From: Siphonodentalium dalli
Taxonomy: Eukaryota > Mollusca > Scaphopoda > Gadilida > Siphonodentaliidae
NCBI GenBank assembly: GCA_032622095.1
Contig: CP136064.1
Location: forward strand, 190,699,794 to 190,763,793
Length of the DNA: 64,000 nucleotides
Direction: 5' to 3'
Every line of letters starts with the position of its first letter. Within the stretch, counting starts at the first letter, position 1. Shown piece after piece: positions 1 to 55,275 of the stretch. Under the pieces are notes generated by a model that searched no databases, was not told the origin of the DNA, and saw only the letters and a program-made list of their open reading frames with translations. The translations under genes and the position numbers were made by a program.

Positions 1-1530
1 CTCTGCACAGAACTATATCACTTGCATGGTCATAAAAAGGGAATTAGAGTTCCCTGGGGGGGGGCTTGCTTCCCTCATATGGTGTACTTATAGACTTAAA
101 ATTGGGTAAAAACCCCTATTTTTATTTCATCAGCATCCCTGCCCCATGCGGGTGTGTCTCCACCATGGACCTATAGTGTATTTGATTAAAGGGATCCCCT
201 GCACAGATACATACAATATTCATGGTCAAAAAAGGGAATTAGGGGTTACAGGGGGGCTGCCTCCCTCATGTGGTGGTCCTATATAGACATGGAAATTGAA
301 GAAAAAACATATTTCCTAATGCATATCAGCATCCCTGCTCCATGAATGCGTGTCTCCACCCGGAGATCTAGTGTATTTGATAAAAGGGACACCTCCTGCA
401 CAGATATATACAAGTTCCATTGTAATAAAAAGGGAATTAGTTGTCTCTGGGGGCTTGATTCCCTCATATGGTGTACTTATTGACTTAAAATTGGGTAAAA
501 ACCCCTATTTTCAAATCATCAGCATCCCTGCCTCATGCAAGTGTGTATCCACCTGCAGCTCTATGGTATTTGATTAAAGGGGCATCCCCTGCACAGATAC
601 ATACCACATCCATGATCATAAAAAGGGAATTAGGGGTTATAGGGGGCCTGCGTCCCTCATGTGGTGGTCCTAATGGACTCGAAAATTTAAGAAAAAATAT
701 ATTTCCTTATGCATATCAGCATACCTGACCCATGAATGTGCATGTGTCTCCACCGGAGCTCTAGTGTATTTCATAAAAGGGACATCTCCTGCACAGATAT
801 ATACAAGTTCCATGGTCATAAAAGGGGAATTAGGGGTCCCTGGGGGCTTGCTTCCCTGATATGGTGTACTTATTGACTTAAAATTGTGTACAAACCACTA
901 TTTTCATGTCATCAGCATCCCTGCCCCATGCAAGTTTGTCTCCATCCTGGAGCTCTATTGTATTTAAATAATGGGGCATCTCCTGCACAGATACATACAA
1001 GTTCCATGGTCATAAAAAGGGAATTAGGGGTTACAGGGGGCCTGCTTCCCTCATGTGGTGGTCCTATATAGACTCGAAAATTGAAGAAAAAACATATTTC
1101 CTAATGCATATCAGCATACATGTCCCATGCATGTGTGTCTCCACCCGGAGCGCTAGTGTATTTGATAAAAGGGACATCTTCTGCACAGATATATAAAAGT
1201 TCCATGGTCATTAAAAGGGAATTAGGGGTCCCTGGGGGGCTTGCTTCCCTCACATGGTGTACTTATTGACTTAAAATTAGGTAAAAACCCCTATTTTCAT
1301 GTCATCAGCATCCCTGCCCCATGCAAGTATGTCCCAACCCTGGAGCTCTGGTGTATTTGAATAAAGGGTCATCTCCTGCAGATATAAATATAAGATCCAT
1401 GGTCATAAAAAGGGAATTAGGGGTTACAGGGGGCCTGCTTCCCTCATGTGGTGTGCCTATATATAGTCTCGAAAATTGAAGAAAAAACATATTTCCTAAT
1501 GCCTATCAGCATACATGCCCCATGTCTATG
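1..1530 (+). repeat. 392-bp dimeric satellite, plus orientation
   Basis: Tandem copies of a unit of about 392 bp made of two related halves of about 196 bp. Half A contains a stretch reading TTGACTTAAAATTGGGTAAA; half B contains GAAAATTGAAGAAAAAACAT. Both halves share the GGTCATAAAAAGGGAATTAG and CTGCACAGATA boxes. About four dimers are present and they are more diverged than those at 30-35 kb. The short open frames in it are not kept across units, because 392 is not a multiple of three. The array runs off the left window edge. Confidence 0.9.
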
Positions 1531-2209: not shown

Positions 2210-2692
2210 AAAGGTACTCAACCCGATAAAACTCCTCTCAATTACTATTTCGATGGCTTCGGGGGTCAAAAATATTTGATTCGAGTCGAGGAAGTCACCC
2301 ATCAAACCTCAGATTTGTTAGATATCGATTTTAGAAATCTATTATTTTTCATTATCGGGAATTCTTTCTGGCCCAGAAGATAGTAAAAAATTCGTTATTA
2401 TTACCCACTTGATTATATAGTTATCCATCCTTGTCTGTTTGAATAGAATTTTGGCGTAAAATCTCGAGCATGTTACCAAATTGACGGCAGTTATAAGTAC
2501 TCATCTCGAGAACATAAGAATTTTCAAAAATCAATATCTAATGACTCTGAGCTTTGTTTGATGGGTTCCTCGACTCGAATCAAATATTTTTTACCCCCAA
2601 AGCCAAAGAAATAGTAATATAGGACCTCTGATCGGATTGTTGTTGTTGGAATCTGTTGAGATGGGGACCCTCTTTACGGGTTGAGTACCTTT
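2210..2692. mobile_element. Small foldback element (MITE-like), 6-bp target duplication
   Basis: The ends read AAAGGTACTCAACCCG and its reverse complement. They are flanked by AAACTT on both sides (2204-2209 and 2693-2698). About 150 bp at each end are inverted copies of one another, including a GATTCGAGTCGAGGAA block. No ORF of note lies inside. A related but larger copy lies at 4478-5843. Confidence 0.75.
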
Positions 2693-2702
2693 AAACTTTT
2701 TT

Positions 2703-2767
2703 AGAATGAAGATTATAAAATCTACTTTTCAGAATGAAGATTATAAAATCTACTTTTCAGAATGAAC
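2703..2767 (+). repeat. 28-bp minisatellite, about 2.3 copies
   Basis: AGAATGAAGATTATAAAATC followed by TACTTTTC is repeated head to tail, with a third partial copy. The next 260 bases, up to the foldback element, hold nothing I recognise. Confidence 0.8.
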
Positions 2768-3033
2768 ATTTTAGCGAAGCACGGCCTTGACCCTTACATT
2801 TCAAGGTTGTTGTTAATGAAGGATCCCCAGCTTGGTGTGGGCTGAAAGGAAGGAAGCGGCGCCTTATCATCGATTTTTTGGAAATTGAAGGGCAATAAAT
2901 CAATAATAGTCTCAGAAGATATGGAAGATATTGTACAGAATATGCTGTAACCACGTCTATAATTTATAAACAGAGTTAGTGTGGTAAGTTGTAACCTGTA
3001 TTTATTTTTTGACAGTGTCATTGTGGCACAAAT

Positions 3034-4023
3034 GGGGATCTACTAAAAGACGGGACGGGACGATTTTCCGGGACGGGACGGAACGATTTGTCTAAAAGAC
3101 GGGACGGGACGGAACGAATATTTAAAAGTCATGTTATTCGGAAATGAAAGAGTTTAGAGGCACAAACATGGTCTCAACTTGTTTATTGGTATCTACTCTA
3201 TACGAATGTGATGTTTTCCCGATAACATTGAGCGTATGCTGAACGGTGGGCGTTCGAATAACGAAGCGTCGAAATTAGGGAAATTTATCACTTCTGGGAC
3301 GATAATCTACAGACTAAAAGTCATATTTCGTTTACATTTTCATGTTTGGGAGACGGATTTTTGCAGAAAATGTTTGTCTAATATATACTAAATAGTAAAA
3401 TAGAAGTTTGAACTTGTTTTCTGATGGTAAAAGTTGTGTTTTTATCCACGGGACGATGACACCTCCATTCTTGAAAAATCTCCATTCCGCCGAACGAAAA
3501 TCGTCGAAAATCTTAACAGAAAAACTCCCATTTCGTTCACATTTTCATGTTTGGGTGACGGATTTTTGCAGAAAATGTTAGTCTAATATATACTAAATAG
3601 TAAAATAGAAGTTTGAACTTGTTTTCTGATGGTAAAAGTAGTGTTTTTATCGACGGGACGATGACATCCGCATTTTTGAAAAATCTGCATTCCGCCGAAC
3701 GAAAATCGTCGAAAATCTTAACAGTTCGGCGGAAGGGTACCTCGAAACAGTGCGCGGAACTGCGCAGAAGTGCGCGGAACTGCGCAGTACAAACAAAACA
3801 GTTATTATACACGGGGAGTTGATTTAAATCATGTATATTAATGAAATATAGTAGTAGAAGGTCTTCAGTTACGAATTTGCAAGATCATTTTAACGTTTTA
3901 TTAGAGAGAGTGAGTGGTAGAATCTACCGCGCACTGTTTCGAGAAAAGTTTACTGCATGCGCTATATCTTCCGCGCATTGTTTCGAGAAAAGCTTACTGC
4001 GCAGTTGTTACCAGAAAACTTAA
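3034..4023 (+). repeat. Left inverted arm of foldback element
   Basis: Inverted counterpart of 6172-7102. It holds two tandem copies (about 3310-3530 and 3535-3790) of a block with AATATATACTAAATAGTAAA and a CGGGACGATGACA motif. The ORFs found here in both directions are mirrored by the other arm and shifted by indels, so they are not read as genes. Confidence 0.85.
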
Positions 4024-4477
4024 TGCGCGATGTCGGATTAATAGCCACAGTTACGTGATAAATTATATATTATAAAACAATTTTTAAAAACTCCCATCAG
4101 CTTTTATCCGGGCTTTGGACCGGCAGACTTAAAATGTCAAAATGAAATTACCGGTGCCATATAGGCTATGGCATCTCTGTGCATATATGGTACCTCTTAT
4201 CTCTCTCTGTTGATCAGTTATTATGTCAAGTAGTCTGTCCGTCAAATCAGGTAATTTCAATATATCAGTCTCTATTTTGATCACATTGTTTAAACCTGCA
4301 CATTTATTATTAGTCAGTTTCGATTTCCTCATATGTTTCCAAATTTATTATTTATTGTTAAAATTCCGTTCGACGTGGAAAATAACCGATCAACGATTTT
4401 GGTGCTTTCTAAATTTAAGTCAAAAAGAGAGAGAGAGTTTGGTTTTGGAGTAATTAAGTTTATTCCCAAATACGATT

Positions 4478-5843
4478 AAAGGTACTCAATCCGATAAAAC
4501 TCCTCTCAATTACTATTTCAATGGCTTTAGGGGCCAAAAATATTTGATTCGAGTCGAGGAAGCCACCCATCAAAGCTCAGATTTATTAGATATCGATTTT
4601 AGAAATCTATTATTTTCATTATCGGGAATACTTGCTGTCCCAGAAGTTTTCCGAAAAAGTCGACCCTCATACTCTCGATACCGGTACTAAGTTCCATCGA
4701 ACAAAATGTTGCTATACAACACATTTTGGGCAATTATATACGACATTTCACAGTCGTTAGCAATATTTTTATACGCCCTTTTGAAAAAAAGGCCGTATTA
4801 TAGTATTGGTCTGTCCGTCCGTCCGTCCGTCCGTCCGGGCGGGCGTCCGTCCGTCCGTTAACCTGTTGTCCGGATGATAACTTTAGTTAGAGTGAACCAA
4901 ATTTAATAAAATTTGGTATGTGGGTTTATTAGCCGAAAAGTAAGTTCAAGTTCGAATTTGGGTTCCGCCCGCCAATTTTCACCGGAGTTATGCCCCTTAT
5001 TTGACGTTTTTTGACTTAGAAAATTCTTGAAATTTGTTGTCCGGATGATAACTTTAGTATAGTTTATCGGAATGAATCCAAATGTGGTATATTACTTTCT
5101 CCCACCAAAACACAGGTCAAGTTCGAACTTGGGTTCTGTCCGACCATTTTTGGCAGAGTTATGCCCCTTTTTCGACTCAGAAAATTCAGTTTTTCTTATG
5201 TTTTTTGGTTTCCGGATGATAACTCGATTTTGGAATGTTTATACGCAAAACCCGTTTTTTTGTGGATTACATATATCGAAATACAGCTCAAGTCCGAATT
5301 TCGTTTTAATCCGATAATTTTTGCGAGAGTTATGGCCCCTTTTTTGACTTAGAAAATCCCTGAAATTTGTTGTCCGGATGATAACTTTAGTTAGAGTGAA
5401 CCGATTTCAATCAAATTTGGTATGTGGGTTTACTAGGAGAAAATACAGCTCAAGTTCGAATTTGGGTTCCGTCCGCCAATTTTCACCGGAGTTATGCCCC
5501 TTATTTGACGTAATTTGACTTAGAAAATCCCTGAAATTTGTTGTCCGGATGATAACTTTACTAGAGCTTATCGGATTCAATGATAATTTGGTATATTACT
5601 TTCTCCCACCAAAACACAGGTCAAGTTCAAATTTGAGTTCCGTCCGCCAATTTTTACCAGAGTTATGCCCCTTATTTACCAGTTTCCGCCGACCCAAGAG
5701 AGGGCGTATATTGCACGCCCAGCGTAGCTCTTGTTGGATAATTAATCGATTCTAATAACTAAAGTGACCTTTGATAAAAACAAAATGGTTGTTGGAATCT
5801 GTTGAGATGAGGACATGTGACTCTGATCGGATTGAGTACCTTT
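4478..5843. mobile_element. Diverged copy of the 2210-2692 element, nested
   Basis: The terminal sequence AAAGGTACTCAATCCGAT and its inverted match are near-identical to the element at 2210. The first 150 bp match it closely (GATTCGAGTCGAGGAAGCCA). The interior is interrupted by a separate repeat at about 4770-5710. No target duplication is visible, which suggests age or rearrangement. Confidence 0.7.
4770..5710. mobile_element. Repeat element with (CCGT)n head and five ~171-bp repeats
   Basis: Bounded by TATACGCCC and GGGCGTATA. It starts with a CCGT microsatellite (4810-4858). Five diverged repeats follow, each opening with TTGTCCGGATGATAACTTTA or a variant, at about 4866, 5037, 5210, 5369 and 5541, and each carrying GAGTTATGCCCCTT. 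This layout (oligonucleotide run, then degenerate repeats of about 170 bp) recurs in invertebrate genomes; I do not assign the element class. Confidence 0.65.
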
Positions 5844-10046: not shown

Positions 10047-10361
10047 TTAAAAGAGCCCCCCCCCCCCCTTTTCGTATGCCGTATTCCATGCCCTGTTATG
10101 AGGTACGCCGTATTCCGGCCCCTCTGTTAGGAAGTATTCGGTATAATAATATAAAATGCGATTTTTGTCACAATAAATTAACAGTTTGACATACAGATCG
10201 TCATCTTCATTTTAGATGTGGACACTGCGGGATGACCGGCGTTCGTACGGCAATAGAACATTTATCCGGAAAATTCCATATGGCTGTTAACTGGTATTCC
10301 GTATTCCACCCTCTGTGTTAAGTGGTATTCCGTATTCCAGGGGGGTTGGGGCCTCTTAAAA
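10047..10361. mobile_element. Small inverted-repeat element with GTATTCCG iterations
   Basis: The ends read TTAAAAGAGCCCCC and the near-inverse GGGGCCTCTTAA. Inside each end lie iterated CGTATTCC motifs. The plan resembles the ends of the 28391-29956 element. The target duplication is not clear. Confidence 0.55.
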
Positions 10362-10567: not shown

Positions 10568-10575
10568 CTGATTAC
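10568..10575. repeat. Target duplication CTGATTAC, left
   Basis: Identical to 19375-19382 on the other side of the 8.8-kb element. Eight base pairs is the hallmark length for hAT insertion. Confidence 0.9.
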
Positions 10576-10906
10576 TAGTGATGCGGACCAGACCACCTTG
10601 GGTGATCCGGTCCACTGCCAATGCGGTCCGGTCCAGGCCATTCCGGTCCGGTACACATGCCTGGACCGGTCCAAAACGGTCCAGTCCACCTATAATAGGC
10701 TATATGTTAAAAAAAAAAAATTTTAAATCTCAAAAATTTATGAAACTTTGAGTTTTCGGTCTCTTACTGAAAATTAATCTCGGCCGACTATTAAATGTCG
10801 GAATGTTTTTAAATTATTTGCGTGTAATATCTTTTGTTATTGGCTAACTCTTTTTGTTCAAACAAATTTTAAATATTTTTCATGAAACTCTGTTAATTTT
10901 ATTAAT

Positions 10907-11145
10907 CGATGTTTAGAAATAGCTTTATACCAATTATATGTGTATGGACTGGTCCGAGTCGCTGTAATTTTGGACATTGACACTATAGGTATGAATGCAT
11001 ACATTCCAGTGTTTATCATCAGACGCGATGTTTAGAAATAACTTTATACCAATTATATGTGTATGGACTGGTCCGAGTCGCTGTAATTTTGGACATTGAC
11101 ACTATAGGTATGAATGCATACATTCCAGTGTTTATCATCAGACGC
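10907..11145 (+). repeat. 119-bp tandem duplication near arm end
   Basis: Two copies start at 10907 and 11026 with CGATGTTTAGAAATA. The same duplication is mirrored at about 18000-18238 in the other arm, so it predates the inversion-duplication. Each copy has a GGACTGGTCCGAGTCG box reminiscent of the GGTCCGGTCC boxes at the hAT ends. Confidence 0.9.
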
Positions 11146-12640
11146 AGTCTCGTCTATTACATCATATAATTGTCTCCACAATACCTGAAATAATTTGACG
11201 CCATTACTCTTACATAAATAATAAAGAGCGTTTATTCTTTACTTCTCTATCCCGATGAAGTTATTGAGTATATGACAAACGTGCATTATCGCGAATTATT
11301 GGAAGAATTATTGAGATGTTGTACTATTTTGAAAGCAGTCACGCTCAGACGAAGAGCGTGATGCGAAATTACTACCCCGAATGAACTGACATATTAATTT
11401 TCAATTATGTACACACACATAATCACACGCGTCAATAGGGTAACACTGTATAGGTCGAAAAAGAGTGACACCTTGGATAAATTGACCAAATGACTGCTAT
11501 TATATCTGTTGACAGCTATGTGTGGTCCGACTCGTTCAATTAAGTTATCGATAGCTTGTCTGAACATCATTACTTGTTTAACGGGTTATGACCACGTAAG
11601 GTTGATAAGCTGTGTCATTGTTAGTATTAACGCGATAATTAGTTATCAAAAATATGCACACATAATACGTACATGTGATAAGACACTCAATAATAGAAGT
11701 TACCTTTGTGTTGTTGTTATAACAACCTTACGTAATAACCACTTATCGACCTATTCATACTTACGCTCATATATAATCTTATATAATGTTAACTCATCTG
11801 TGCTAACTATTTTCGGGAGTTATGGTATACAAATATCTATGACGAAGCTTCCTTTTATGCATGTTAGACGTGCACACGTATACATACGTAATATCAGACT
11901 AAACAAAGCTGTTGATATGTTTCTTTCATCTTTTATATGATGGCGCTATATGTTATATACTCGATAGACCTAGTTACCGCCTGTGCTCAATCGCACATAA
12001 GCGAAACAAACGCTCTTTATTTCAATAACAGGGAGGCTACTCTAACACTCTTAGTTTTTCCAACAAAATAGTTATCAAATTCGATCACCAATAGAACTGT
12101 CTGTGAAACAACGATGACTTATAACAATCTTTAACTTATTTATCGATCTATGCTAGAACATGGCCACAACAAAATCATGACCATAACAAAAAACATTACC
12201 TTAACCTTACCATTACGCATGAATATAAATTTACCATGAGTAAATATTGTCAGACTATCGTCTGATGAGCAAATCTATATGTTTACATTATACTTAATCT
12301 CAGGTATGACTAGAATTGTATCATGTGTGCACATGACATCATTCGAAGGGGCAATACACTCAAGGAGTTAAAGTGACACGAAACAAGGGACGTGATGCAA
12401 TATTGGTGTTTGAATATTAAAGGAACACAAGACACTCTAAAGGGACACAAGACACTCATTATGAATGAATGTTAACAATACAAGCGCAGTGGTTGAAAGT
12501 TAAAATGACACAGAACAATATTTAAAGTTCAAATTTTCGGGCACTTAATGCGCCTTTTATCATTACGTATCGTTTCTCACTCTACAATTCCCAATAATCC
12601 ACTCACTCTCTCCCCGCTTATAGATATATAACGAAAACGG
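11146..12640. other. Outer part of left arm, no convincing gene
   Basis: AT-rich and mirrored at 16750-18000. It contains an open frame at 11509-11940 whose mirror is shortened and changes frame in the other arm (17267-17626), so coding is unlikely. TTATCGATAG and TTGATAAG words recur between 11540 and 11970. The words TGACACCTTGGATAAATTGA at 11468 recur, diverged, in the central spacer near 14672. Confidence 0.6.
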
Positions 12641-12659
12641 GAATATCATGTTGATGAAG

Positions 12660-12665
12660 TTTATT
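12660..12665 (-). terminator. Polyadenylation signal AATAAA of ATPase copy 1
   Basis: Lies 5-11 bases past the stop codon on the minus strand, in the mirrored position to 16727-16732. An AATAAA this close to the stop suggests a very short 3' untranslated region. Confidence 0.6.
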
Positions 12666-12670
12666 GAAAT

Positions 12671-14362
12671 TTAATCGTCCGAATTGTCATCACTTTCGTC
12701 AGAAGTGTCATTTGTTTCGTCCATGAATTTTTCTAGCATCGGTTTGTACTTTAATATTGACAGTTTCACTGCATCACATTCTCCATAACCATTATTCAAA
12801 TATTTGTCGACTTTATCCATGACTCTGTTGTGCAGAGTCCCATTGCACAGCTGCAAATACGCTACTATTGTCCAAGCATAACCATTCATAAATTGCTTCA
12901 TATCTTTACTTTTAAGGTCCTTGTCAGCTTGTTCTTTTGCTTCTGTTTCTTTCGAACCATTTTCCTTATACGTGTCCACTTTATCACTCCATTCCTCATG
13001 TGTTTTATCTCTACTCTCATCACACAAACTTTTGAAGTATTCATCTTCATTCAATTTAATTTTCTTATTCTGACTATCATCCGTGTCCTCAGTTAATTTT
13101 CGTTTTAACTTATTTTCTTGACACCAGTTTTTTAATTGTCTCTGAACATCATAATGATCTTCGAACAAAAGCCCGCTGTCATTACAAGGGTACGACATGT
13201 CTTCTCGAATGTCTATGTTTTGACGGTTCTTCTTATTAATTTCATCGAGCTCACCAGGTGGCCTTAAGTCGTTAGTATAGTCATTATGTTGACCCTGGGG
13301 CACAATATAATTATATGCTATGCCCTTCTGTTGACCAGGGAGTTCTCTGTCATCGTATTTCATCGCATTCTGTTGACCCTGGGTCTCAGTGTCTTTTGTA
13401 TGTTTTTTCATCCCATTCTTTTCATCTGGGTGTTCTCTGTCTTTTTGGAGATTATATTTCATGCCATTCCATTCACCCATATGTCGGTTCGTGTCCTCTT
13501 TTAGTACATTCTGTCGCAGACGTAATGTGTCCGGTGTTGCGGCTTTTAAATCCACCAGTAGGTAACCGTACGGTTCACTCGTCGCTTCCGAAAACTCTCG
13601 AACCATACGCTGAGGACATTCAGGATACATCTGTCTTGATAATGTTGAAATTAATCCCTTGTCGATTGGGTTATTGAACAATACCAAATATTGACAATTT
13701 CGTCGTTGCGTTGGATCTTTGTTGTAGTAGAAATTCTTGTTCAAACTTATCAAAGATAAGTTCAAATGGTGACTTCCTTCGGAATGCAAATCATTAACTC
13801 TCTGGTCTTTTGACGAAGTTTGCATCAAGTCATCGAGTAAAACTAGATTTTTATACCGGGGGTTGATAAGAGAATCCAAGTTTGCTGGTATTCCTCGTAT
13901 AAAGTTGACATGAGGGGTGACGGTATACTTTATTTCGTCATATAGGGGCTGCCAATATTTATAAAACCATATTATTCTGTCAGGTGCGGGTGATATTTTT
14001 GAGGCAGACTTTTGTAGCAAGGTTTTCACGAAGTACGTCTTCCCACTAGATGTCGGTCCACTTACACATGCCGTGAATGGATGCTTGAAAATAAAATCTT
14101 CCTGGATTTTAGCCATTGGATCATCAAAGCAGGATGTCATGTCGCTTGGTGGTTGTTGTTGTTGTTGGTGTTGTTGTTGTGGCTGATGATACTGTTGTTG
14201 TTGTTGTGGCTGATGATACTGTTGTTGTTGTTGTTGTTGGTGTTGTGGCTGATGATACTGTTGTTGTTGTTGTTCTGAAGGCGTGTGTTTAACTTTGATA
14301 TGACGCTTCAAACTATCTTGCCAAGCATAGACACTTAAGCACTCTTCACATTGATACTTCAT
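12671..14362 (-). CDS. Zinc-finger, Q-rich P-loop ATPase (packaging-ATPase-like), copy 1
   Basis: A 563-residue intact frame. The N-terminal C2H2 finger has C5, C8, H21 and H26. Residues 31-72 are a Gln/His/Pro-rich low-complexity tract with repeated QQYHQPQ. The ATPase core follows: Walker A GPTSSGKT at 102-109, Walker B ending LLDD at 175-178, and an EGSHH motif at 195-199. The region 289-365 has degenerate repeats around NGMKY and GQQ. A second finger at 393-414 is damaged: C393 and C414 remain, but the expected Cys at 396 is Ser and the His at 409 is Gln. The tail is charged, ending in an acidic DESDDNSDD run. The core resembles A32-like (FtsK/HerA-type) ATPases that pump DNA into virions; multi-copy relatives occur, I believe, in invertebrate mobile elements. 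The function is inferred, and a different STAND or AAA-type role is possible. A TATA box lies 46 bases upstream of the ATG. Confidence 0.7.
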   Translation of the reverse strand: MKYQCEECLSVYAWQDSLKRHIKVKHTPSEQQQQQYHQPQHQQQQQQQYHQPQQQQQYHQPQQQHQQQQQPPSDMTSCFDDPMAKIQEDFIFKHPFTACVSGPTSSGKTYFVKTLLQKSASKISPAPDRIIWFYKYWQPLYDEIKYTVTPHVNFIRGIPANLDSLINPRYKNLVLLDDLMQTSSKDQRVNDLHSEGSHHLNLSLISLNKNFYYNKDPTQRRNCQYLVLFNNPIDKGLISTLSRQMYPECPQRMVREFSEATSEPYGYLLVDLKAATPDTLRLRQNVLKEDTNRHMGEWNGMKYNLQKDREHPDEKNGMKKHTKDTETQGQQNAMKYDDRELPGQQKGIAYNYIVPQGQHNDYTNDLRPPGELDEINKKNRQNIDIREDMSYPCNDSGLLFEDHYDVQRQLKNWCQENKLKRKLTEDTDDSQNKKIKLNEDEYFKSLCDESRDKTHEEWSDKVDTYKENGSKETEAKEQADKDLKSKDMKQFMNGYAWTIVAYLQLCNGTLHNRVMDKVDKYLNNGYGECDAVKLSILKYKPMLEKFMDETNDTSDESDDNSDD

Positions 14363-14407
14363 TTTCCTATATAATCAGTGAAATCGAGCGTTCTTCTATG
14401 CACCTAT

Positions 14408-14416
14408 ATTTATATA
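14408..14416 (-). promoter_or_regulatory. TATA box of ATPase copy 1
   Basis: TATATAAAT on the minus strand, 46-54 bases before the ATG at 14362; mirrored at 14942-14950. A TATA-type core promoter suits a mobile or viral gene that brings its own promoter. Confidence 0.55.
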
Positions 14417-14486
14417 GAACAGAAACAAGGGAAACGTGGTGGACTAGTTAACTAGTTCAGGCTGTCGTTCACAACGTCTCTTAGTG

Positions 14487-14879
14487 TTGTTTGTACTGGA
14501 TACAAATTTATCACATTGGCTACAATACAACCTACCTATCCAAATGTCAATGCAATTATGAGTGATTTCAATATGAACACTCTATTATATAGATATGTGT
14601 AACCTGGTGACATGATGAAATCGATTGTGTACTGAGTTGACCTCCGGCTTCGTGCCGATTGTGTACTGAGCTGACACCGTGGATAAATTGACCAATGACT
14701 GCTATTGTATCCTTTGACAGATATGCGTGCGCAGACTCGTTTGATGTTCGCTATCGCATTACTATGTTTTAATAGCCGAGACTTCACTTCTCGTCTGACT
14801 CTCTTACCGACAAGACCTGTTGATTCCCCATCTACACAGTGCTTCTCCGGCAGACGTTATATATAGTCTGCCGGAGAAG
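14487..14879. other. 393-bp unpaired centre between divergent ATPase genes
   Basis: Not part of the inverted arms. About 70 bp near 14672-14745 match the outer arm sequence at 11468-11540 (GATAAATTGACCAA, ATGACTGCTATT), with divergence. It also contains a duplicated GATTGTGTACTGAG word (14625 and 14657) and ends in a perfect hairpin. It could be a shared regulatory or replication-related region; this is inference. Confidence 0.7.
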
Positions 14880-14883
14880 CACT
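14838..14883. repeat. Perfect 18-bp-stem hairpin at the centre
   Basis: AGTGCTTCTCCGGCAGAC and its exact complement flank the 10-base AT loop GTTATATATA. The stem overlaps the inner edge of the right arm by four bases. It is GC-rich in an AT-rich context and stands out as a candidate cruciform or nick site. Confidence 0.9.
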
Positions 14884-14941
14884 AAGAGACGTTGTGAACG
14901 ACAGCCTGAACTAGTCCACCACGTTTCCCTTGTTTCTGTTC

Positions 14942-14950
14942 TATATAAAT
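14942..14950 (+). promoter_or_regulatory. TATA box of ATPase copy 2
   Basis: TATATAAAT 46 bases before the ATG at 14996, in the same place as in copy 1. Confidence 0.55.
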
Positions 14951-14995
14951 ATAGGTGCATAGAAGAACGCTCGATTTCACTGATTATATAGGAAA

Positions 14996-16721
14996 ATGAA
15001 GTATCAATGTGAAGAGTGCTTAAGTGTCTATGCTTGGCAAGATAGTTTGAAGCGTCATATCAAAGTTAAACAAACGCCTTCAGAACAACAACAACAACAA
15101 CAACAACAGTATCATCAGCCACAACAACAACAACAACAACACAAACAACACCAACAACAACAGTATCATCAGCCACGACAACAACAACAACAGTATCATC
15201 AGCCACAACAACAACAACACCACCAACAACAACAACAACCACCAAGCGACATAACATCCTGCTTTGATGATCCAATGGCTAAAATCCAGGAAGATTTTAT
15301 TTTCAAGCATCCATTCACGGCATGTGTAAGTGGACCGACATCTAGTGGGAAGACGTACTTCGTGAAAAACCTTGCCACAAAAGTCTGCCTCAAAAATATC
15401 ACCCGCACCTGACAGAATAATATGGTTTTATAAATATTGGCAGCCCCTATATGACGAAATAAAGTATACCGTCACCCCTCATGTCAACTTTATACGAGGA
15501 ATACCAGCAAACTTGGATTCTCTTATCAACCCCCGGTATAAAAATCTAGTTATACTCGATGACTTGATGCAAACTTCGTCAAAAGACCAGAGAGTTAATG
15601 ATTTGCATTCCGAAGGAAGTCACCATTTGAACTTATCTTTGATAAGTTTGAACCAGAATTTCTACTACAACAAAGATCCAACGCAACGACGAAATTGTCA
15701 ATATTTGGTATTGTTCAATAACCCATTCGACAAGGGATTAATTTCAACATTATCAAGACAGATGTATCCTGAATGTCCTCAGCGTATGGTTCGAGAGTTT
15801 TCGGAAGCGACGAGTGAACCGTACGGTTACCTACTGGTGGATTTAAAAGCCGCAACACCGGACACATTACGTCTGCGACAGAATGTACTAAAAGAGGACA
15901 CGAACCAACATATGGGTGAATGGAATGGCATGAAATATAATCTCCAAAAAGACAGAGAACACCCAGATGAACAGAATGGGATGAAAAAACATACAAAAGA
16001 CACTGAGACCCAGGGTCAACAGAATGCGATGAAATACGATGACAGAGAACTCCTTGGTCAACAGAAGGGCATAGCATATAATTATATTGTGCCCCAGGGT
16101 CAACATAATGACTATACTAACGACATAAGGCCACCTGGTGAGCTCGATGAAATTAATAAGAAGAACCGTCAAAACATAGACATTCGAGAAGACATGTCGT
16201 ACCCTTGTAATGACTGTGGGCTTTTGTTCGAAGATCATTATGATGTTCAGAGACACGTAAAAAACTGGTGTCAAGAAAATAAGTTAAAACGAAAATTAAC
16301 TGAGGACACGGATGATAGTCAGAATAAGAAAATTAAATTGAATGAAGATGAATACTTCAAAAGTTTGTGTGATGAGAGTAGAGATAAAACACATGAGGAA
16401 TGGAGTGATAAAGTGGACACGTATAAGGAAAATGGTTCGACAGAAACAGAAGCAAAAGAACAAGCTGACAAGGACCTTAAAAGTAAAGATATGAAGCAAT
16501 TTATGAATGGTTATGCTTGGACAATAGTAGCGTATCTGCAGCTGCGCAATGGGACTCTGCACAACAGAGTCATGGATAAAGTCGACAAATATTTGAATAA
16601 TGGTTATGGAGAATGTGATGCAGTGAAAATGTCAATATTAAAGTACAAACCGATGCTAGAAAAATTCATGGACGAAATAAATTACACTTCTGACGAAAGT
16701 GATGACAATTCGGACGATTAA
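14996..16721 (+). pseudogene. Zinc-finger, Q-rich P-loop ATPase, copy 2, frameshifted
   Basis: Same gene as copy 1 in the opposite arm. One extra A in a run (15365-15369, five A where copy 1 has four) shifts the frame just after Walker A, so the first frame stops at 15410-15412 and the rest reads in another frame up to 16721. The first finger has lost its last ligand (H26 is Gln). The second finger, damaged in copy 1, is complete here with Cys-x2-Cys and His-x4-Cys. The Q-rich tract is longer and differs in repeat number. After the shift I count 15 amino-acid replacements against copy 1 and one silent change. A single-base error in the assembly could mimic the shift; otherwise this copy is broken. 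Confidence 0.75.
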
Positions 16722-16726
16722 ATTTC

Positions 16727-16732
16727 AATAAA
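16727..16732 (+). terminator. Polyadenylation signal AATAAA of ATPase copy 2
   Basis: Six bases after the TAA stop at 16719-16721; mirrored in copy 1. Confidence 0.6.
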
Positions 16733-18417
16733 CTTCATCAACATGATATTCCCGTTTTCGTTATATATCTATAAGCGGGGAGAGAGTGAGTGGATTATTG
16801 GGAATTGTAGAGTGAGAAACGATACGTAATGATAAAAGGCGCATTAAGTGCCCGAAAATTTGAACTTTAAATATTGTTCTGTGTCATTTTAACTTTCAAC
16901 CACTGCGCTTGTATTGTTAACATTCATTCATAATGAGTGTCTTGTGTCCCTTTAGAGTGTCTTGTGTTCCTTTAATATTCAAACACCAATATTGCATAGT
17001 TAAAGATTGTTATAAGTCATCGTTGTTTCACAGACAGTTCTATTGGTGATCGAATTTGATAACTATTTGGTTGGAAAAACTAAGAGTGTTAGAGTAGCCT
17101 CCCTGTTATTTAAATAAAGAGCGTTTGTTTCGCTTATGTGCGATTGAGCACAGGCGGTAACTAGGTCTATCGAGTATATAACATATAGCGCCATCATATA
17201 AAAGATGAAAGAAACATATCAACAGCTTTGTTTAGTCTGATATTACGTATGTATACGTGTGCACGTCTAACATGCATAAAAGGAAGCTTCGTCATAGATA
17301 TTTGTATACCATAACTCCCGAAAAATAGTTAGCACAGATGAGTTAACATTATATAAGATTATATATGAGCGTAAGTATGAATAGGTCGATAAGTGGTTAT
17401 TACGAAAGGTTGTTATAACAACAACACAAAGGTAACTTCTATTATTGAGTGTCTTATCACATGTACGTATTATGTATGCATATTTTTGATAACTAATTAT
17501 CGCGTTAATGCTAACAATGACACAGCTTATCAACCTTACGTGATCATAACCCGTTAAACAAGTAATGATGTTCAGACAAGCTATCGATAACTTAATTGAA
17601 CGAGTCGGACCACACATAGCTGTCAACAGATATAATAGCAGTCATTTGGTCAATTTATCCAAGGTGTCACTCTTTTTCGACCTATACAGTGTTACCCTAT
17701 TGACGCGTGTGATTATGTGTGTGTACATAATTGAAAATTTGTTCCATAGAATATGTCAGTTCGTTCGGGGTAGTAATTTCGCATCACGCTCTTCGTCTGA
17801 GCGTGACTGCTTTCAAAATAGTACAACATCTCAATAATTCTTCCAATAATTCGCGATAATGCACGTGTGTCATATACTCAATAACTTCATCGGGATAGAG
17901 AAGTAAAGAATAAACGCTCTTTATTATTTATGTAAGAGTAATGGCGTCAAATTATTTCAGGTATTGTGGAGACAATTATATGATGTAATAGACGAGACTG
18001 CGTCTGATGATAAACACTGGAATGTATGCATTCATACCTATAGTGTCAATGTCCAAAATTACAGCGACTCGGACCAGTCCATACACATATAATTGGTATA
18101 AAGCTATTTCTAAACATCGCGTCTGATGATAAACACTGGAATGTATGCATTCATACCTATAGTGTCAATGTCCAAAATTACAGCGACTCGGACCAGTCCA
18201 TACACATATAATTGGTATAAAGCTATTTCTAAACATCGATTAATAAAATTAACAGTTTCATGAAAAATATTTAAAATTTGTTTGAACAAAAAGAGTTAGC
18301 CAATAACAAAAGATATTACACGCAAATAATTAAAAAACATTCGACATTTAATAGTCGGCCGAGATTAATTTTCAGTAAGAGACCGAAAACTCAAAGTTTC
18401 ATAAATTTTTGAGATTT

Positions 18418-19240
18418 TTTAAAACTTTATTTTGAAAATTTTGGAAAAAAAAAATTAGGTTTTGAAATTTTTTTTGTGAATATTTTAGTACAAACAATTT
18501 TACCGCCAAAAAATCTATTTTTAGATGTGGAGCGAACGAGCCCCCCCCCGTACTACTGATAATAGTATTTCTAGTAATGCGAACATGCACTAATTAAATG
18601 TATTGGACATATATATAGCTAGGGCCAGAATGTGTTATAACCAATCTAACATGGCACTCAACTGATCGTATGCATGATTCGTATCATACTTATTTTCATT
18701 AAATTGAAATTTAAACGAAATAACTATACTGATTACAATTATACAAATGTGTACTAATATGACTACTACATTAATATTGGAGTCTTGGATTGTGATGGCT
18801 GATTGTATAGTCCTGACAATTACAGTTATATACCTAAGTACAACTACTATTGGTTTAATGTGACTGTCTTGTGTATATGTACTATGTAATTTGGTTTCCA
18901 TGTTTCTTCGATAATTATAACTGTGAAAAACAATAGAATACTCGATTCGATATCCATCCAAATTGATTAGTTGATGCCATGTTACACTGTTTATGACAAA
19001 TAGTTCCATACGCATTCAGTTGCATGTTTGTCGCATTGATAGGGTGCTACATAGTGTTGGCCAGTGTTACACTAATACATTTTAAGGAAAGTGACATGTA
19101 CAAAGTACATCTATACATTGTTTTCGTGGCATAAAACGTTTATTAGATATTAACCACTTGTGTGTGCCAATACATCGTTGCTAATTGATATGATGGCAAA
19201 TACGCAATAATATTTGCGATAATTTATTATAACAGAAGTA
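18418..19240. other. Unpaired right flank inside the hAT-ended element
   Basis: AT-rich, with no partner on the left side. It includes an A/T run, a C-run at 18541 and a 126-codon minus-strand frame (18635-19015) with one hydrophobic stretch but no recognised domain; I do not call it a gene. This may be the remaining interior of the original hAT element. Confidence 0.5.
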
Positions 19241-19374
19241 AAATAGTGGACCGGACCGGAGAGTACAGGACCGGCGGCAAAAAGCAGTCCGGTCCGGTCC
19301 AGTGACACCCGGACCGGACCGCGGTCCACCCCTGGACCACGGACCGGTCCAAAGCGGTCCGGTCCGCATCACTA

Positions 19375-19382
19375 CTGATTAC
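19375..19382. repeat. Target duplication CTGATTAC, right
   Basis: Exact repeat of 10568-10575. Confidence 0.9.
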
Positions 19383-30168: not shown

Positions 30169-33100
30169 CATATATCTGTGCAGGAGATGTCAATTTTATC
30201 AAATACACTAGAGCTCCGGGTGGAGACACACATGCATGGGTCATGTATGCTGATATGCATTAGGAAATATGTTTTTTCTTCAATTTTCGAGCCTATATAG
30301 GCACACCACATGAGGGAAGCAGGCCCCCAGTAACCCCTAATTCCCTTTTTATGACCATGGATCTTATATGTATATGTGCAGGAGATGCCCTTTTATTCAA
30401 ATACACCAGAGCTCCGGGCTGGAGACATACTTGCATGGGGCAGGGATACTGATTATATGAAAATAGGGGTTTTTACCCAATTTTAAGTCAATAAGTACAC
30501 CATATGAGGGAAGCAAGCCCCCAGGGACACCTAATTCCCTTTTTATGACCATGGAACTTGTATATATCTGTGCAGGAGATGTCACTTTTATCAAATACAC
30601 TAGAGCTCCGGGTGGAGACATACATGCATGGGGCATGTATGCTGATATGCATTAGGAAATATGTTTTTTCTTCAATTTTCGAGCCTATATAGGCACACCA
30701 CATGAGGGAAGCAGGCCCCCTGTAACTCCTAATTCCCTTTTTATGGCCATGGATCTTATATGTATATGTGCAGGAGATGACCCTTTATTCAAATACACCA
30801 GAGCTCCGGGTGGAGACATACTTGCATGGGGCAGGGATGCTGATGATATGAAAATAGGGGTTTTTACCCAATTTTAAGTCAATAAGTACACAATATGAGG
30901 GAAGCAAGCCCCCGGGGACCCCTAATTCCCTTTTTATGACCATGGAACTTGTATATGTCTGTGCAGGAGATGTCACTTTTATCAAATACACTAGGGCTCC
31001 GGGTGGAGACACGCATGCATGGGGCATGTATGCTGATATGCATTAGGAAATATGTTTTTTCTTCAATTTTCGAGCCTATATAGGCACACCACATGAGGGA
31101 AGCAGGGCACCTGTAACCCCTAATTCCCTTTTTATGACCATGGATCTTATATTTATATGTGCAGGAGATGCCACTTTATTCAAATACACCAGAGCTCCGG
31201 GGTGGAGACATACTTGCATGGGGCAGGGATGCTGATGAAATGAAAATAGGGGTTTTTACCCAATTTTAAGTCAATAAGTACACCATATGAGGGAAGCAAG
31301 TCCCCAGGGACCCCTAATTCCCTTTTTATGACCATGGAACTTGTATATATCTGTGCAGAAGATGTCACTTTTATCAAATACACTAGAGCTCCGGGTGGAG
31401 ACACACATGCATGGGGCATGTATGCTGATATGCATTAGGAAATATGTTTTTTCTTCAATTTTCGAGCCTATATAGGCACACCACATGAGGGAAGCAGGCC
31501 CCCAGTAACCCCTAATTCCATTTTTATGACCATGGATCTTATATGTATATGTGCAGGAGATGCCCCTTTATTCAAATACACCAGAGCTCCGGGGTGGAGA
31601 CATACTTGCATGGGGCAGGGATGCTGATGATATGAAAATAGGGGTTTTTACCCAATTTTAAGTCAATAAGTACACCATATGAGGGAAGCAAGCCCCCGGG
31701 GACCCCTAATTCCCTTTTTATTACCATGAAACTTGTATATATCTGTGCAGGAGATGTCACTTTTATCAAATACACTAGAGCTCCGGGTGGAGACACACAT
31801 GCATGGGGCATGTATGCTGATATGCATTAGGAAATATGTTTTTTCTTCAATTTTCGAGCCTATATAGGCACACCACATGAGGGAAGCAGGCCCCCAGTAA
31901 CCCCTAATTCCCTTTTTATGACCATGGATCTTATATGTATATGTGCAGGAGATGCCCCTTTATTCAAATACACCAGAGCTCCGGGGTGGAGACATACTTG
32001 CATGGGGCAGGGATGCTGATGATATTAAAATAGGGGTTTTTACCCAATTTTAAGTCAATAAGTACACAATATGAGGGAAGCAAGCCCCCAGGGACCCCTA
32101 ATTCCCTTTTTATGACCATGGAACTTGTATATATCTGTGCAGAAGATGTCACTTTTATCAAATACACTAGAGCTCCGGGTGGAGACACACATGCATGGGG
32201 CATGTATGCTGATATGCATTAGGAAATATGTTTTTTCTTCAATTTTCGAGCCTATATAGGCACACCACATGAGGGAAGCAGGCCCCCAGTAACCCCTAAT
32301 TCCCTTTTTATGACCATGGATCTTATATGTATATGTGCAGGAGATGCCCTTTTATTCAAATACACCAGAGCTCCGGGGTGGAGACATACTTGCATGGGGC
32401 AGGGATGCTGATTATATGAAAATAGGGGTTTTTACCCAATTTTAAGTCAATAAGTACACCATATGAGGGAAGCAAGCCCCCAGGGACACCTAATTCCCTT
32501 TTTATGACCATGGAACTTGTATATATCTGTGCAGGAGATGTCACTTTTATCAAATACACTAGAGCTCCGGGTGGAGACACACATGCATGGGGCATGTATG
32601 CTGATATGCATTAGGAAATATGTTTTTTCTTCAATTTTCGAGCCTATATAGGCACACCACATGAGGGAAGCAGGCCCCCTGTAACCCCTAATTCCCTTTT
32701 TATGACCATGGATCTTATATGTATATGTGCAGGAGATGACCCTTTATTCAAATACACCAGAGCTCCGGGTGGAGACATACTTGCATGGGGCAGGGATGCT
32801 GATGATATGAAAATAGGGGTTTTTACCCAATTTTAAGTCAATAAGTACACAATATGAGGGAAGCAAGCCCCCAGGGACCCCTAATTCCCTTTTTATGACC
32901 ATGGAACTTGTATATATCTGTGCAGGAGATGTCACTTTTATCAAATACACTAGGGCTCCGGGTGGAGACACACGTGCATGGGGCATGTATGCTGATATGC
33001 ATTAGGAAATATGTTTTTTCTTCAATTTTCGAGCCTATATAGGCACACCACATGAGGGAAGCAGGCCCCCAGTAACCCCTAATTCCATTTTTATGACCAT

Positions 33101-34795
33101 GGATCTTATATGTATATGTGCAGGAGATGCCCCTTTATTCAAATACACCAGAGCTCCGGGGTGGAGACATACTTGCATTGGGCAGGGATGCTGATTATAT
33201 GAAAATAGGGGTTTTTACCCAATTTTAAGTCAATAAGTACACCATATGAGGGAAGCAACCCCCCAGGGACCCCTAATTCCCTTTTTATTACCATGGAACT
33301 TGTATATATCTGTGCAGGAGATGTCACTTTTATCAAATACACTAGAGCTCCGGGTGGAGACACACATGCATGGGGCATGTATGCTGATATGCATTAGGAA
33401 ATATGTTTTTTCTTCAATTTTCGAGCCTATATAGGCACACCACATGAGGGAAGCAGGCCCCCAGTAACCCCTAATTCCCTTTTTATGACCATGGATCTTA
33501 TATGTATATGTGCAGGAGATGCCCTTTTATTCAAATACACCAGAGCTCCGGGGTGGAGACATACTTGCATGGGGCAGGGATGCTGATTATATGAAAATAG
33601 GGGTTTTTACCCAATTTTAAGTCAATAAGTACACCATATGAGGGAAGCAAGCCCCCAGGGACACCTAATTTCCTTTTTATGACCATGGAACTTGTATATA
33701 TCTGTGCAGGAGATGTCACTTTTATCAAATACACTAGAGCTCCGGGTGGAGACACACATGCATGGGGCATGTATGCTGATATGCATTAGGAAATATGTTT
33801 TTTCTTCAATTTTCGAGCCTATATAGGCACACCACATGAGGGAAGCAGGCCCCCAGTAACCCCTAATTCCCTTTTTATGACCATGGATCTTATATGTATA
33901 TGTGCAGGATGCCACTTTATTCAAATACACCAGAGCTCCGGGGTGGAGACATACTTGCATGGGGCAGGGATGCTGATGAAATGAAATTAGGGGTTTTTAC
34001 CCAATTTTAAGTCAATAAGTACACCATATGAGGGAAGCAAGCCCCCAGGGACCCCTAATTCCCTTTTTATGACCATGGAACTTGTATATATCTGTGCAGG
34101 AGCTGCCCCTTTATTCAAATACACCAGAGTTCCGGGTGGAGACATACTTGCATGGGGCAGGGATGATGATGATATGAAAATAGGGGTTTTTACCCAATTT
34201 TAAGTCAATAAGTACACCATATGAGGGAAGCAAGCCCCCCGGGGACCCCTAATTCCCTTTTTATTACCATGGAACTTGTATATATCTGTGCAGGAGATGT
34301 CACTTTTATCAAATACACTAGAACTCCGGGTGGAGACACACATGCATGGGGCATGTATGCTGATATGCATTAGGAAATATGTTTTTTCTTCAATTTTCGA
34401 GCCTATATAGGCACACCACATGAGGGAAGCAGGCCCCCAGTAACCCCTAATTCCCTTTTTATGACCATGGATCTTATAGGTATATGTGCAGGAGATGTCA
34501 CTTTATTCAAATACACCAGAGCTCCGGGGTGGAGACATACTAGCATGGGGCAGGGATGCTGATGAAATGAAAATAGGGGTTTTTACCCAATTTTAAGTCA
34601 ATAAGTACACCATATGAGGGAAGCAAGCCCCCGGGGACCCCTAATTCCCTTTTTATGACCATGGAACTTGTATATATCTGTGCAGAAGATGTCACTTTTA
34701 TCAAATACACTAGAGCTCCGGGTGGAGACACACATGCATGGGGCATGTATGCTGATATGCATTAGGAAATATGTTTTTTCTTCAATTTTCATAAT
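30169..34795 (-). repeat. 392-bp dimeric satellite, minus orientation, ~12 dimers
   Basis: Highly uniform head-to-tail dimers (A and B halves of about 196 bp), much less diverged than the plus-oriented arrays. At about 33905-34300 two A halves stand next to each other with the intervening B half missing, a typical trace of unequal exchange. The left border is a head-to-head junction at 30165-30175, and the right border falls inside the B half at 34793. Frames of 71-79 codons repeat in each unit only because the DNA is conserved. Confidence 0.95.
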
Positions 34796-35281: not shown

Positions 35282-36618
35282 CATATAACGGGAGTACCTA
35301 AAACCAGCGATGTATATACGTCCATGCTAAAACGCTGAATCAGCTGCTGATAAGCAGGTTACCAATTAAAATGCTGATCAGCAGATTTCCAAATTTCAGT
35401 TTAACTCAAATATACCGACGGTAGTCGGTCGCGGGTTGTGTAAATGACACGTAATATAAGTGTTATACAGGAAGGGGACACATTTTGACCGCCTGCCATG
35501 CCCGTTCAACAGTTCAAAATCCCGTTCAGCAGTATACGGCGGCTGCAGTTCGCCATGGCCGTTCAATAGTTCAAAATCCCGATCAGCAGTAAGGCGGCTG
35601 CAGTTCGTCAGATTATCGCGAACGCAGTTTATCTCAATTATAACAAAGTTAGTCGAGTTTAATGATGACTTGTAATCGATGGGCCATAACCATATACAGG
35701 GGAGGAAAACCATTCGACGGACATTCACCCCCCAGTTTAGCAGTTCAAAATCCCGTTCAGCAGTTCATAAGGAGCAGCTCATGCAGCTGATTCCCCGAAC
35801 GCAGTTTAACTAAATTATAATGAAGTTATTCGAGAATAGTTTATGCAAACGACATGATCGACGTGCCTTAACTAAATACAAAGAGAGAACACCATTTGAC
35901 CGACCTCTACCCAGGTATAGTTCAACAGTTCAAAATCCCGTTCAGCACGTTATTCAGCAGATTCCACCGAACGCAGTTTAACCGATTTTTAACGAGGATT
36001 GTCGGGTATATGTTGTGCAAATGACTATCGATGGAACATAACCAAATACAGGGATGGAACACCATTTGTCCCATTTTGCTGGGACAGACACACAGACATG
36101 CTACTATTTTGTGTCTATTTTGGAACGATCTTGGTAACCTGTCGTTAACCAACATGGATTACTGTACCCTACAGTAGATCAAGATTCGTCATACTAGTAA
36201 TTATGCATGATATGATCCAGCGATGTATATATGTAGGCATGATCTAATAAAAGTTAAACCTACCTTCTACAATTTTTGGAAATATGAATGTGCTATCTGC
36301 ATCGCTACCAACACATTTTTGGTTTACTGTTACCCATTCATTCGGCCTATCTCGGAGACAAGAACGTTCCAGCATGCAAACCGAATGTGAATATAAAGGT
36401 AATAATATTTCGCGGAAATGTAATCACGTGATACCGATTCCTGGTATTTCCAAGTGAAAGTGAAAGTGAATGCATATAACGGGAGTACCTAAAACCAGCG
36501 ATGTATATACGTCCATGCTAAAACGCTGAATCAGCTGCTGATAAGCAGGTTACCAATTAAAATGCTGATCAGCAGATTTCCAAATTTCAGTTTAACTCAA
36601 ATATACCGACGGTATAGT

Positions 36619-37645
36619 GAGGTATGTAATTTAGCGGGATTAACACAAAGGCGCACGGCGGGTTTGCTGTAGTTAAGCCGACAAAGGAGCATTGTGTGGC
36701 TCTGCGGTAACGTGATCCCTGTATTGACAAACCCGCAGGCGCTGACAGTTCTATTGAGGCTGCGGATATCCACACACCCGCATGCCTCATAAACCAACAC
36801 ATGCGCAGAGTGGAAATTGCGCATTACAATCAACATGTCTCATAAACCAACTAATTGCCGTTACAAAAAAACACGCAACTGAAATGGCGCAAAATGAGTA
36901 CAAGACTTTATGTGACGAACTCAAGTGTTCTAAAAGTGTCCAGGCTGTCGTCACATCAGCAGGTCGAGTGTGTCCAGCACATCTCAGAATGATTCTTGGA
37001 GAACTGTCTCGTGCTATTCTCCAATTCGGCGGCGATGAAAAGGTCCCGAAAATATTGACACAAGTTGTTAAAGGACAAACTAATCTTGTTGATCCAACGA
37101 AACAAAGTGATTTCGGTTTAGTCATTAAAACGTGTCCATTGTTGAAAGATCTCCTGAACTGTAAGACAATAGCTCCAAATGTGAGAGCACTGTTGGGCGA
37201 AATGTTGTCTCCGAATAAATGGTGATGGGACAAAAATGTTGTAGTTCGTTAATTATTACTCAATATATGGCATGCGCGAATGTAGCATAATCTTATTACA
37301 GCACCGACATTTGCGCATTGAATAATGTGTTTATGGCATGCGTTAATATGTTATTAGGCACATGCGCAAATGTTTAGTTAGGCACTGCCCATTTGTCTGG
37401 TCCTAATCCGATTCACGCACGATGTGATCATAATTACCAACACGCGTCTTAGAAGACCACGCCCATGCCTGTTTGTGACAACATGTAATCCAATTCCGCA
37501 TGTCTTCGGCGCGTGAAAGGAGTAAACCGCGCCTTTGTGTCTTTCCTTAGGGCATTTGCGCAAGCCAATAAGATGCTCCTTTGAGCTGTCAATCACACTA
37601 ACCCGCCGTGCTCCTTTGTGGTATATGAGGCAAATTACATATATG
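36619..37645. mobile_element. 1,027-bp inverted-repeat element, copy 1
   Basis: Inserted in array unit 2. The inverted ends contain TATGTAATTT and, further in, CACAAAGG(C/A)GCACGGCGGGTT, with AAAGGAGCAT deeper. The flanking CGGTAGT is present on both sides (CGGTATAGT on the left in this copy), giving a duplication of 7-8 bp. It carries a 147-codon frame. On its right side GCATGCGC(G/A)AATGT recurs three times. The superfamily is not clear; an 8-bp duplication would suit hAT. Confidence 0.75.
36782..37225 (+). CDS. Hypothetical 147-residue protein of the 1,027-bp element, copy 1
   Basis: An open frame from an ATG at 36782 to TGA. A second ATG (residue 41, MAQNEYKTLCDELK) is an equally possible start. 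The protein is mostly helical in composition, with HLRMILGELSRAILQFGG and a C-terminal VRALLGEMLSPNKW. I recognise no domain. The antisense strand is open over almost the same span, so coding is not certain; the sense frame was preferred for its amino-acid make-up. The other copy (51542-51985) differs by one base inside the frame, and that change is silent. Confidence 0.4.
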   Translation: MPHKPTHAQSGNCALQSTCLINQLIAVTKKHATEMAQNEYKTLCDELKCSKSVQAVVTSAGRVCPAHLRMILGELSRAILQFGGDEKVPKILTQVVKGQTNLVDPTKQSDFGLVIKTCPLLKDLLNCKTIAPNVRALLGEMLSPNKW

Positions 37646-39910: not shown

Positions 39911-39918
39911 TTCCAAAA

Positions 39919-55204: not shown

Positions 55205-55275
55205 CCCGGAAGTAAGTTCAAACCAAATTTGAATATGGCCGCCAGAGAGGCATACCTTTCTTTTTATATTAGTAA

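Follow-up and report, generated by a model that had tools for sequence, protein, structure and literature searches.

Polintons, or Mavericks (polintoviruses and adintovirus-like elements), are 15-20 kb long, with long terminal inverted repeats and an FtsK-like packaging ATPase, and a 6-bp target duplication together with an AG end is the criterion by which they are recognised. Their terminal repeats are expected to carry signals for the integrase and the protein-primed polymerase. Non-autonomous Polintons are deletion derivatives that have lost the enzymes of an autonomous element but kept its terminal repeats, and virophages, which parasitise giant viruses, carry FtsK-type ATPases and capsid genes of their own. 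Passages of PMC6431247 and PMC4028283 cover part of what is said of the Polinton integrase, the polymerase and the terminal-repeat signals, and PMC4028283 there disputes the view, once proposed, that Tlr elements are non-autonomous Polintons. Polintons are regarded as viruses; the abstract of PMC8097293 (2021) states that no particles of theirs had been observed by then. Here we analyse a palindrome in a 64,000-nucleotide stretch (the window) of contig CP136064.1 of the scaphopod Siphonodentalium dalli. Our reading, with a probability of roughly 0.85, is that a non-autonomous Polinton satellite, present in this genome in many copies, here lies truncated within a hAT-type element. Our searches of open-access papers brought up no title or abstract that describes an element of this kind, and the Maverick passages of two bivalve genome papers are general in content.

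The case for this reading begins with the ends of the element at other loci. The ATPase gene carried by the palindrome was searched for in the host's own genome (2.227 Gb, 9 contigs; 77 of 6636 first-look candidates were scored, and all counts are lower bounds), which gave at least 106 matches, of which 77 are complete or almost complete in length and 29 are pieces from the N-terminal part. Fifty-three of the 77 have no internal stop, a share biased upward since these are the best-scoring matches. Close pairs number 12 and take up 24 of the 77, and all 12 are head to head. Four 10-kb stretches (L031, L032, L033 and L034) hold elements with ends of the form AGTAGTAY.. or AGAAGAATAG.. and exact 6-bp duplications (Table 1). 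Five further ATPase-bearing loci are flanked by CATACC, CACATG, CATAGG, TGAAGG and GCTAGA, and three larger elements by AATAAC, CCTTCC and GACGTT, the last placed in this class by its size. AG-type ends and exact 6-bp duplications were thus seen at all 12 independent both-ended loci (9 ATPase-bearing, 3 larger), eight of the duplications being found by script and four by eye from the flanking sequence. The count leaves out the window copy, which has no left end, and L052/L053 and L054/L055, whose left end falls outside the fetched piece; a loose pattern match in L052 is not an end. The elements at C2:124728661-124745186 and C2:125174296-125190860 are one Polinton insertion (AATAAC) with identical flanks, inverted and about 446 kb apart, which is either a segmental duplication or an assembly duplication, and the copy at C2:125174296 was not counted.

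The same genome holds full-length Polintons with the same terminal sequence. A search with the window-type terminal 258 bp (40 places scored of 1414 candidates) returned inverted end pairs 16.1-17.9 kb apart, 6.1-7.7 kb apart and, in one case, 34 kb apart. One member of 16.5 kb, which we call the helper, was read from two pieces (L035 and L036). It has an ATPase frame of 223 aa, an rve integrase with chromodomain in two overlapping frames, DNA_pol_B_2 (PolB), an adenain-like ORF that stays below the Pfam cut-off (18.0 bits against 21.3) and a 416-aa protein whose bivalve relatives are called F54H12.2-like. The model of this protein (mean pLDDT 86.7) matches the double-jelly-roll capsid proteins of iridovirus, mavirus and Sputnik, with a best E of 2.7e-13, and on that model it is a predicted double-jelly-roll capsid protein. 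Between its own two terminal repeats the helper has 96% identity over 1372 bp, and the terminal repeats of the window element match both helper ends at 95-98% over about 1.2-1.3 kb. The window element otherwise matches the helper pieces, at the DNA level, only in repeats of parts of the terminal repeat and in a 45-bp relic that resembles the second zinc finger of the satellite ATPase. Both window-type helpers sampled have this relic, located between the terminal repeat and the ATPase gene of the helper (L035 1691-1735; L038, the second helper copy, 2707-2751). In L038, positions 2286-5321 are a partial tandem duplication of one Polinton terminal repeat, which would explain a length of 17.9 kb.

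Among the ORFs of the window element there is no gene for PolB, integrase, capsid or protease; it lacks the gene set of an autonomous Polinton and has the shared terminal repeats of a non-autonomous member. Those repeats, the AG ends, the 6-bp duplications of the other copies and the missing helper genes together make it a non-autonomous Polinton. It differs from full-length Polintons in being a near-complete palindrome of 8-9 kb, in having an ATPase unlike that of its partner (31% identity) and in the direction of its genes: in the sampled helper the genes adjoining both terminal repeats face inward, whereas the satellite ATPases face outward. Unlike the non-autonomous Polintons described before, the satellite keeps a duplicated virus-type gene, a hairpin centre and arms that are homogenised copy by copy.

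Within the window, the giant inverted repeat reported by the initial annotation is real: 10712-14486 pairs with 14880-18433 at 97-98% identity by BLAST with indels counted (98% for 10712-12136 against 16998-18433, 97% for 12395-14486 against 14880-16997), and gap-free pieces of the two arms are about 99% identical. The right arm is also short of roughly 350-390 bp beside the centre of the palindrome, and a centre of the same type is present in L004, L007, L013 and L017/L021. The right end of the inner element, AGTAGTAC.., starts at 18557 on the minus strand; on the left, about 125 bp are gone and the element meets the hAT end at about 10712. Insertion of a Polinton into a hAT-type element, followed by deletion of its left tip, would be the simplest reading of this arrangement.

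The outer frame is of hAT type. The exact 8-bp duplication and matching ends that had been proposed as borders are where they were said to be: CTGATTAC occurs at 10568-10575 and 19375-19382 (one more copy, at 18729, is probably due to chance), and the 14-bp inverted ends are TAGTGATGCGGACC, from 10576, and its reverse complement, which finishes at 19374. Over the outermost 145-150 bp or so, the motif GGWCC has densities of 53 per kb at one end and 90 per kb at the other; in the arms and the window flanks its density is 1.2-1.4 per kb, and neither of the two unpaired inner stretches contains it. A chance origin of these ends is ruled out by the exact duplication, the matching ends and the enrichment in GGWCC. 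An 8-bp target duplication with short inverted ends is what defines a hAT element, subterminal repeats are a further likeness, and the TAGTG end and nTnnnnAn-like target presumably fit that superfamily too. The likeness extends to the outer frame only; no transposase was seen in the frame, where the longest ATG frame within 18558-19374 is 126 aa by the ORF listing, the only scan of that segment, and membership in hAT leaves the palindrome unexplained. Immediately to the left of the hAT-type element, window 10093-10335 consists of short CTGTTA.. repeats with 75% identity.

Table 1. Features of the window, with positions in window coordinates, and four related elements elsewhere in the genome, with lengths.
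Feature	Position or length	Strand	Remarks
Inner element, probable palindromic non-autonomous Polinton	10712..18557		left end about 125 bp short, right end intact
Terminal inverted repeat, Polinton-type, left (truncated)	10712..11864	+	96-97% to terminal repeats of the 16.5-kb Polinton
Two 119-bp tandem repeats in left terminal repeat	10907..11145	+	common to Polinton
Left-arm-only segment	12137..12394	+	258 bp, missing from right arm
ATPase, packaging-type, left copy	12671..14362	-	open frame of 563 aa, zinc-finger-like motifs
Near-centre left-arm stretch without right-arm partner	14487..14840		limits approximate
Palindrome centre	14838..14884		short hairpin, loop of about 10 nt; limits approximate
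ATPase, right copy, part before frameshift	14996..15412	+	
ATPase, right copy, part after frameshift	15366..16721	+	open frame
Terminal inverted repeat, Polinton-type, right (complete end)	17270..18557	-	95-98% to terminal repeats of the 16.5-kb Polinton
Two 119-bp tandem repeats in right terminal repeat	18000..18238	-	
Outer hAT-type element, left target duplication CTGATTAC	10568..10575		8 bp
Outer hAT-type element, left end	10576..10711	+	14-bp inverted end, dense GGWCC
Outer hAT-type element, right part	18558..19374	-	about 690 bp, then GGWCC cluster (19248-19374) and inverted end
Outer hAT-type element, right target duplication	19375..19382		8 bp
L031	8541 bp		6-bp duplication AATGTG
L032	5384 bp		6-bp duplication ACTCTG; one arm mostly lost
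L033	7921 bp		6-bp duplication GATACA
L034	8855 bp		6-bp duplication GTTACA

In the protein of the ATPase gene the P-loop motor lies between two C2H2-like motifs, with a Q-rich linker after the first of them and a helical C-terminal domain after the second; both finger matches fall under the Pfam cut-offs. The left copy scores 23.6 bits for Pfam Pox_A32 (cut-off 22.8), which neither piece of the frameshifted right copy reaches. In the AlphaFold model (mean pLDDT 73, mostly above 90 in the motor) the top match in the PDB is to the STIV B204 packaging ATPases (E 1.7e-6), and A32-like packaging ATPases and adenovirus IVa2 are among the best matches in the viral models of BFVD. The motor core is therefore that of an FtsK/HerA-type virus packaging ATPase, kin of A32, IVa2 and B204. 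The label of packaging ATPase given in the initial annotation was sound as a statement of kinship, with packaging itself as a putative activity. Its two head-to-head genes are both there, but the right one is frameshifted; and the ATPase is alone within the element, but the larger Polinton partner with the same ends had been overlooked.

Relatives of the ATPase number 209. Among the 120 listed, all those with an organism name are from bivalves (Mizuhopecten, Pecten, Pinctada, Mytilus, Solemya, Ruditapes and Mya), with a single exception that bears the label of a bacterial metagenome bin; the nearest are from scallops, at 64-68% over the motor region. Judged by these relatives alone, the host would probably be a bivalve. 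In some of the relatives, from organisms that include Mya and Mytilus, the ATPase is predicted to be fused to an adenain-type domain (P0039, P0053) or to integrase C-terminal and chromodomains (P0056, P0067), which points to Polintons. The protein gave no match to viral contigs, query A1 none to viral or genome contigs, and tblastn none to phage sequences; the search of PHROGs gave a single match, at E 0.34 only. Twenty-six columns are invariant in 30 sequences. Such conservation across relatives shows long-term constraint on the family, although full Polintons may be the source of these proteins. In the left window copy, two ligand positions of the second finger and one near-invariant residue of the core differ from the family; with the frameshift on the right, both window copies look damaged.

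A census made by ends rather than by the gene gave a similar association. Twenty previously unassigned window-type ends were followed inward (one more unassigned end was left out): 13 lead to the zinc-finger ATPase, 2 to helper genes, perhaps of a single 34-kb element, and 5 to neither, so that the ATPase is found at 13 of the 15 gene-bearing ends. It was present in all six short elements fetched whole, and two short elements picked by their ends alone contain one open copy (L058) and two broken copies (L059). The ends of L034 define a further subfamily, for which same-ended partners were predicted before its end search was made. That search (40 places scored of 1643 candidates) gave short pairs of 8855, 8566, 8452, 9381, 9057, 7905, 9466, 9473, 9643, 8461, 8558 and 3931 bp and longer ones of 16191, 16227, 13315 and 20554 bp. 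Helper genes are present in both elements of about 16.2 kb; their longer matched pieces have 89-97% identity to proteins of the first helper, and each of the four ends of these elements matches those of L034 at 96-98% over 258 bp. The pairs at C9:126504647-126517961 (13.3 kb) and C2:199640860-199661413 (20.6 kb) have satellite-type flank inside and are perhaps nested insertions. Probes from inside the other L034-type pairs matched the zinc-finger ATPase in 3 of 11 cases, one at 92% and two near 63%. The latter belong to another lineage of the ATPase, which has about 63% identity to the window protein and is present in the L034-type satellites L087, L088 and L091; among the eight probes without a zinc-finger ATPase match, that from L088 matches the 3' end of the L091 ATPase at 98% over 307 bp.

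The two arms of a copy are kept alike. Within L031, L033 and L034 the arms are mostly 97-100% identical, with lower values in windows at the extreme ends of L031 (0.93) and L033 (0.90) and at the centre (0.95-0.96; 0.79 and 0.51 in L033). Over a non-coding stretch of some 0.5-1 kb (window 17713-16998 and its equivalents), loci of different subfamilies share about 30-80%, some perhaps being non-homologous, and the arms within each locus are again 97-100% alike. In a tree of terminal repeats the two ends of one locus are sisters wherever both ends of a satellite locus were included (L034 is represented by one end). Distances in the ATPase core are 0-0.0139 within pairs. Self-templated homogenisation of the arms is what these patterns suggest. 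For the likeness of the arms we infer fold-back replication, to which chromosomal gene conversion between arms is the alternative. Of 30 upstream regions, 14 (11 distinct loci) have a centre that is at least 79% palindromic, with loops that are short or GC-rich. Flip-flop of the hairpin loop was considered and set aside: the loop is seen in both orientations, which is expected of a palindrome viewed from either side and is not evidence. Pairwise dN/dS among 23 open ATPase cores has a median of 0.58, and 246 of the 251 pairs have a dS below 0.06; strong purifying selection is not borne out, and we regard the dN/dS values as weak evidence for constraint.

Two ways of explaining the palindrome away can be dealt with together. 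Long near-perfect palindromes are a known class of assembly artefact, the product of a fold-back read, but here the arms differ by indels and substitutions, the 12 head-to-head pairs lie at different loci, and unique flanks carry target duplications; an artefact is extremely improbable. The initial annotation favoured a single hAT-mobilised unit with the palindrome as its permanent cargo, and the exact 8-bp duplication with matching ends does agree with that. At other loci, however, copies have ends and 6-bp duplications of their own, and comparison with the hAT end regions gave no match reaching 60 bp at any of the four loci L031-L034. Inverted-repeat units without hAT ends elsewhere were the very finding that the annotation had named as decisive against such a unit, which we now consider very improbable. 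Its fallback, a nested pair, is supported by the unit's own ends at other loci and its own right end in the window.

A more serious rival holds that the element is an ordinary fold-back deletion derivative of a Polinton, in which the terminal repeats alone matter for mobility and the ATPase is a passenger with no role. We give this a substantial chance, somewhat short of even. The 45-bp relic in both sampled window-type helpers suggests that the gene may once have been Polinton-borne; some predicted proteins of Mya and Mytilus have this ATPase fused to integrase-type or adenain domains, and few changes underlie the omega values. A simple snap-back of a helper end, however, would give a layout other than the outward-facing ATPases seen here, the satellite ATPase is not the helper's, and the gene is found at most gene-bearing ends, in every short element fetched whole and free of stops in the majority of scored copies. 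Several points nevertheless weigh against our own interpretation, and in part for this rival. Omega is 0.37-0.61 on 5-13 synonymous changes (fresh copies, different subfamilies), which is compatible with hitch-hiking; stops interrupt 24 of the 77 scored ATPase matches, and both copies in the window look damaged. Eight of the 11 L034-type probes have no zinc-finger ATPase match and two of the three matches are those near 63%, so that not every short element visibly carries the gene, as might have been claimed. These eight probes match one another and the non-coding flank of the satellites at up to 97%, where output is complete; they lie in a flank that is longer there, and the ATPase was therefore mostly not reached. 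The terminal repeats of L031 and L034 are just 80-82% identical to those of the first helper, the only helper with which L031 was compared. The arms of L033 differ from one another near the centre, as do those of the window element, and in the ATPase core arms are often no closer within a locus than between loci, other loci being as close or closer, which indicates that exchange between copies occurs too. The arms would so be homogenised within each copy while copies also exchange the ATPase. Finally, trans mobilisation, fold-back replication and packaging are steps that we infer from sequence. A further rival makes the ATPase a DNA-binding factor for replication, integration or evasion of silencing rather than a packaging motor; the two C2H2-like motifs (below Pfam cut-offs) and the helical C-terminal domain outside the motor would suit that role, but the motor core is best matched by virus packaging ATPases, and we think it unlikely.

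On the reading of a nested Polinton satellite, the palindromic element is probably mobilised in trans. The helper's integrase and protein-primed polymerase would act on the common terminal repeats, and a palindrome with such ends could be copied and integrated as the helper is. The displaced strand may fold into a hairpin and template its other half, which would keep the arms alike. The ATPase would be kept since it aids the spread of the element, most plausibly by loading the element's own DNA into helper capsids.

Further repeats in the window lie outside the nested elements. Window 30170-34771 is a satellite array with a higher unit of about 392 bp (two halves of about 196 bp), and window 3-1524 is a related array in inverted orientation to it. 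Window 35282-55276 contains large duplicated blocks at 97-99% identity, for example 35282-39523 with 50047-54276, and these blocks include two copies of a 155-aa frame that has no Pfam match above cut-off.

By analogy, the element would work like a phage satellite such as the phage-inducible chromosomal islands (PICIs): it is integrated, has about half the length of its helper, carries a packaging-type gene of its own and would depend on the capsid genes of the helper. Same-ended helpers exist in the same genome, as judged by their sequence, and the packaging-type gene is distinct from the helper's; redirection of capsids would be the analogous step. Membership in the phage satellites is not claimed. 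There is no homology, the host here is a eukaryote, and helper induction, capsid resizing and transfer belong to the PICI side, whereas here there are genes alone. Virophages and transpovirons are likewise small elements tied to a larger DNA virus, but here the partner is a Polinton with the same ends. We tentatively raise a bolder possibility, to which we would give appreciable but clearly minority odds: that of a satellite virus of animal chromosomes, a hairpin palindrome with the replication and integration signals of Polintons, which swaps terminal repeats between helper lineages and loads itself into helper capsids. If this is true, it would be the animal counterpart of phage satellites. 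A separate family with Polinton ends and a packaging-type motor only is what would be expected if Polinton particles form and matter, and this family makes the question of such particles testable, with molecules of 8-9 kb and 16 kb to look for. It also provides a natural example, from the genome of an animal, of a long, near-perfect palindrome whose arms stay alike within each copy.

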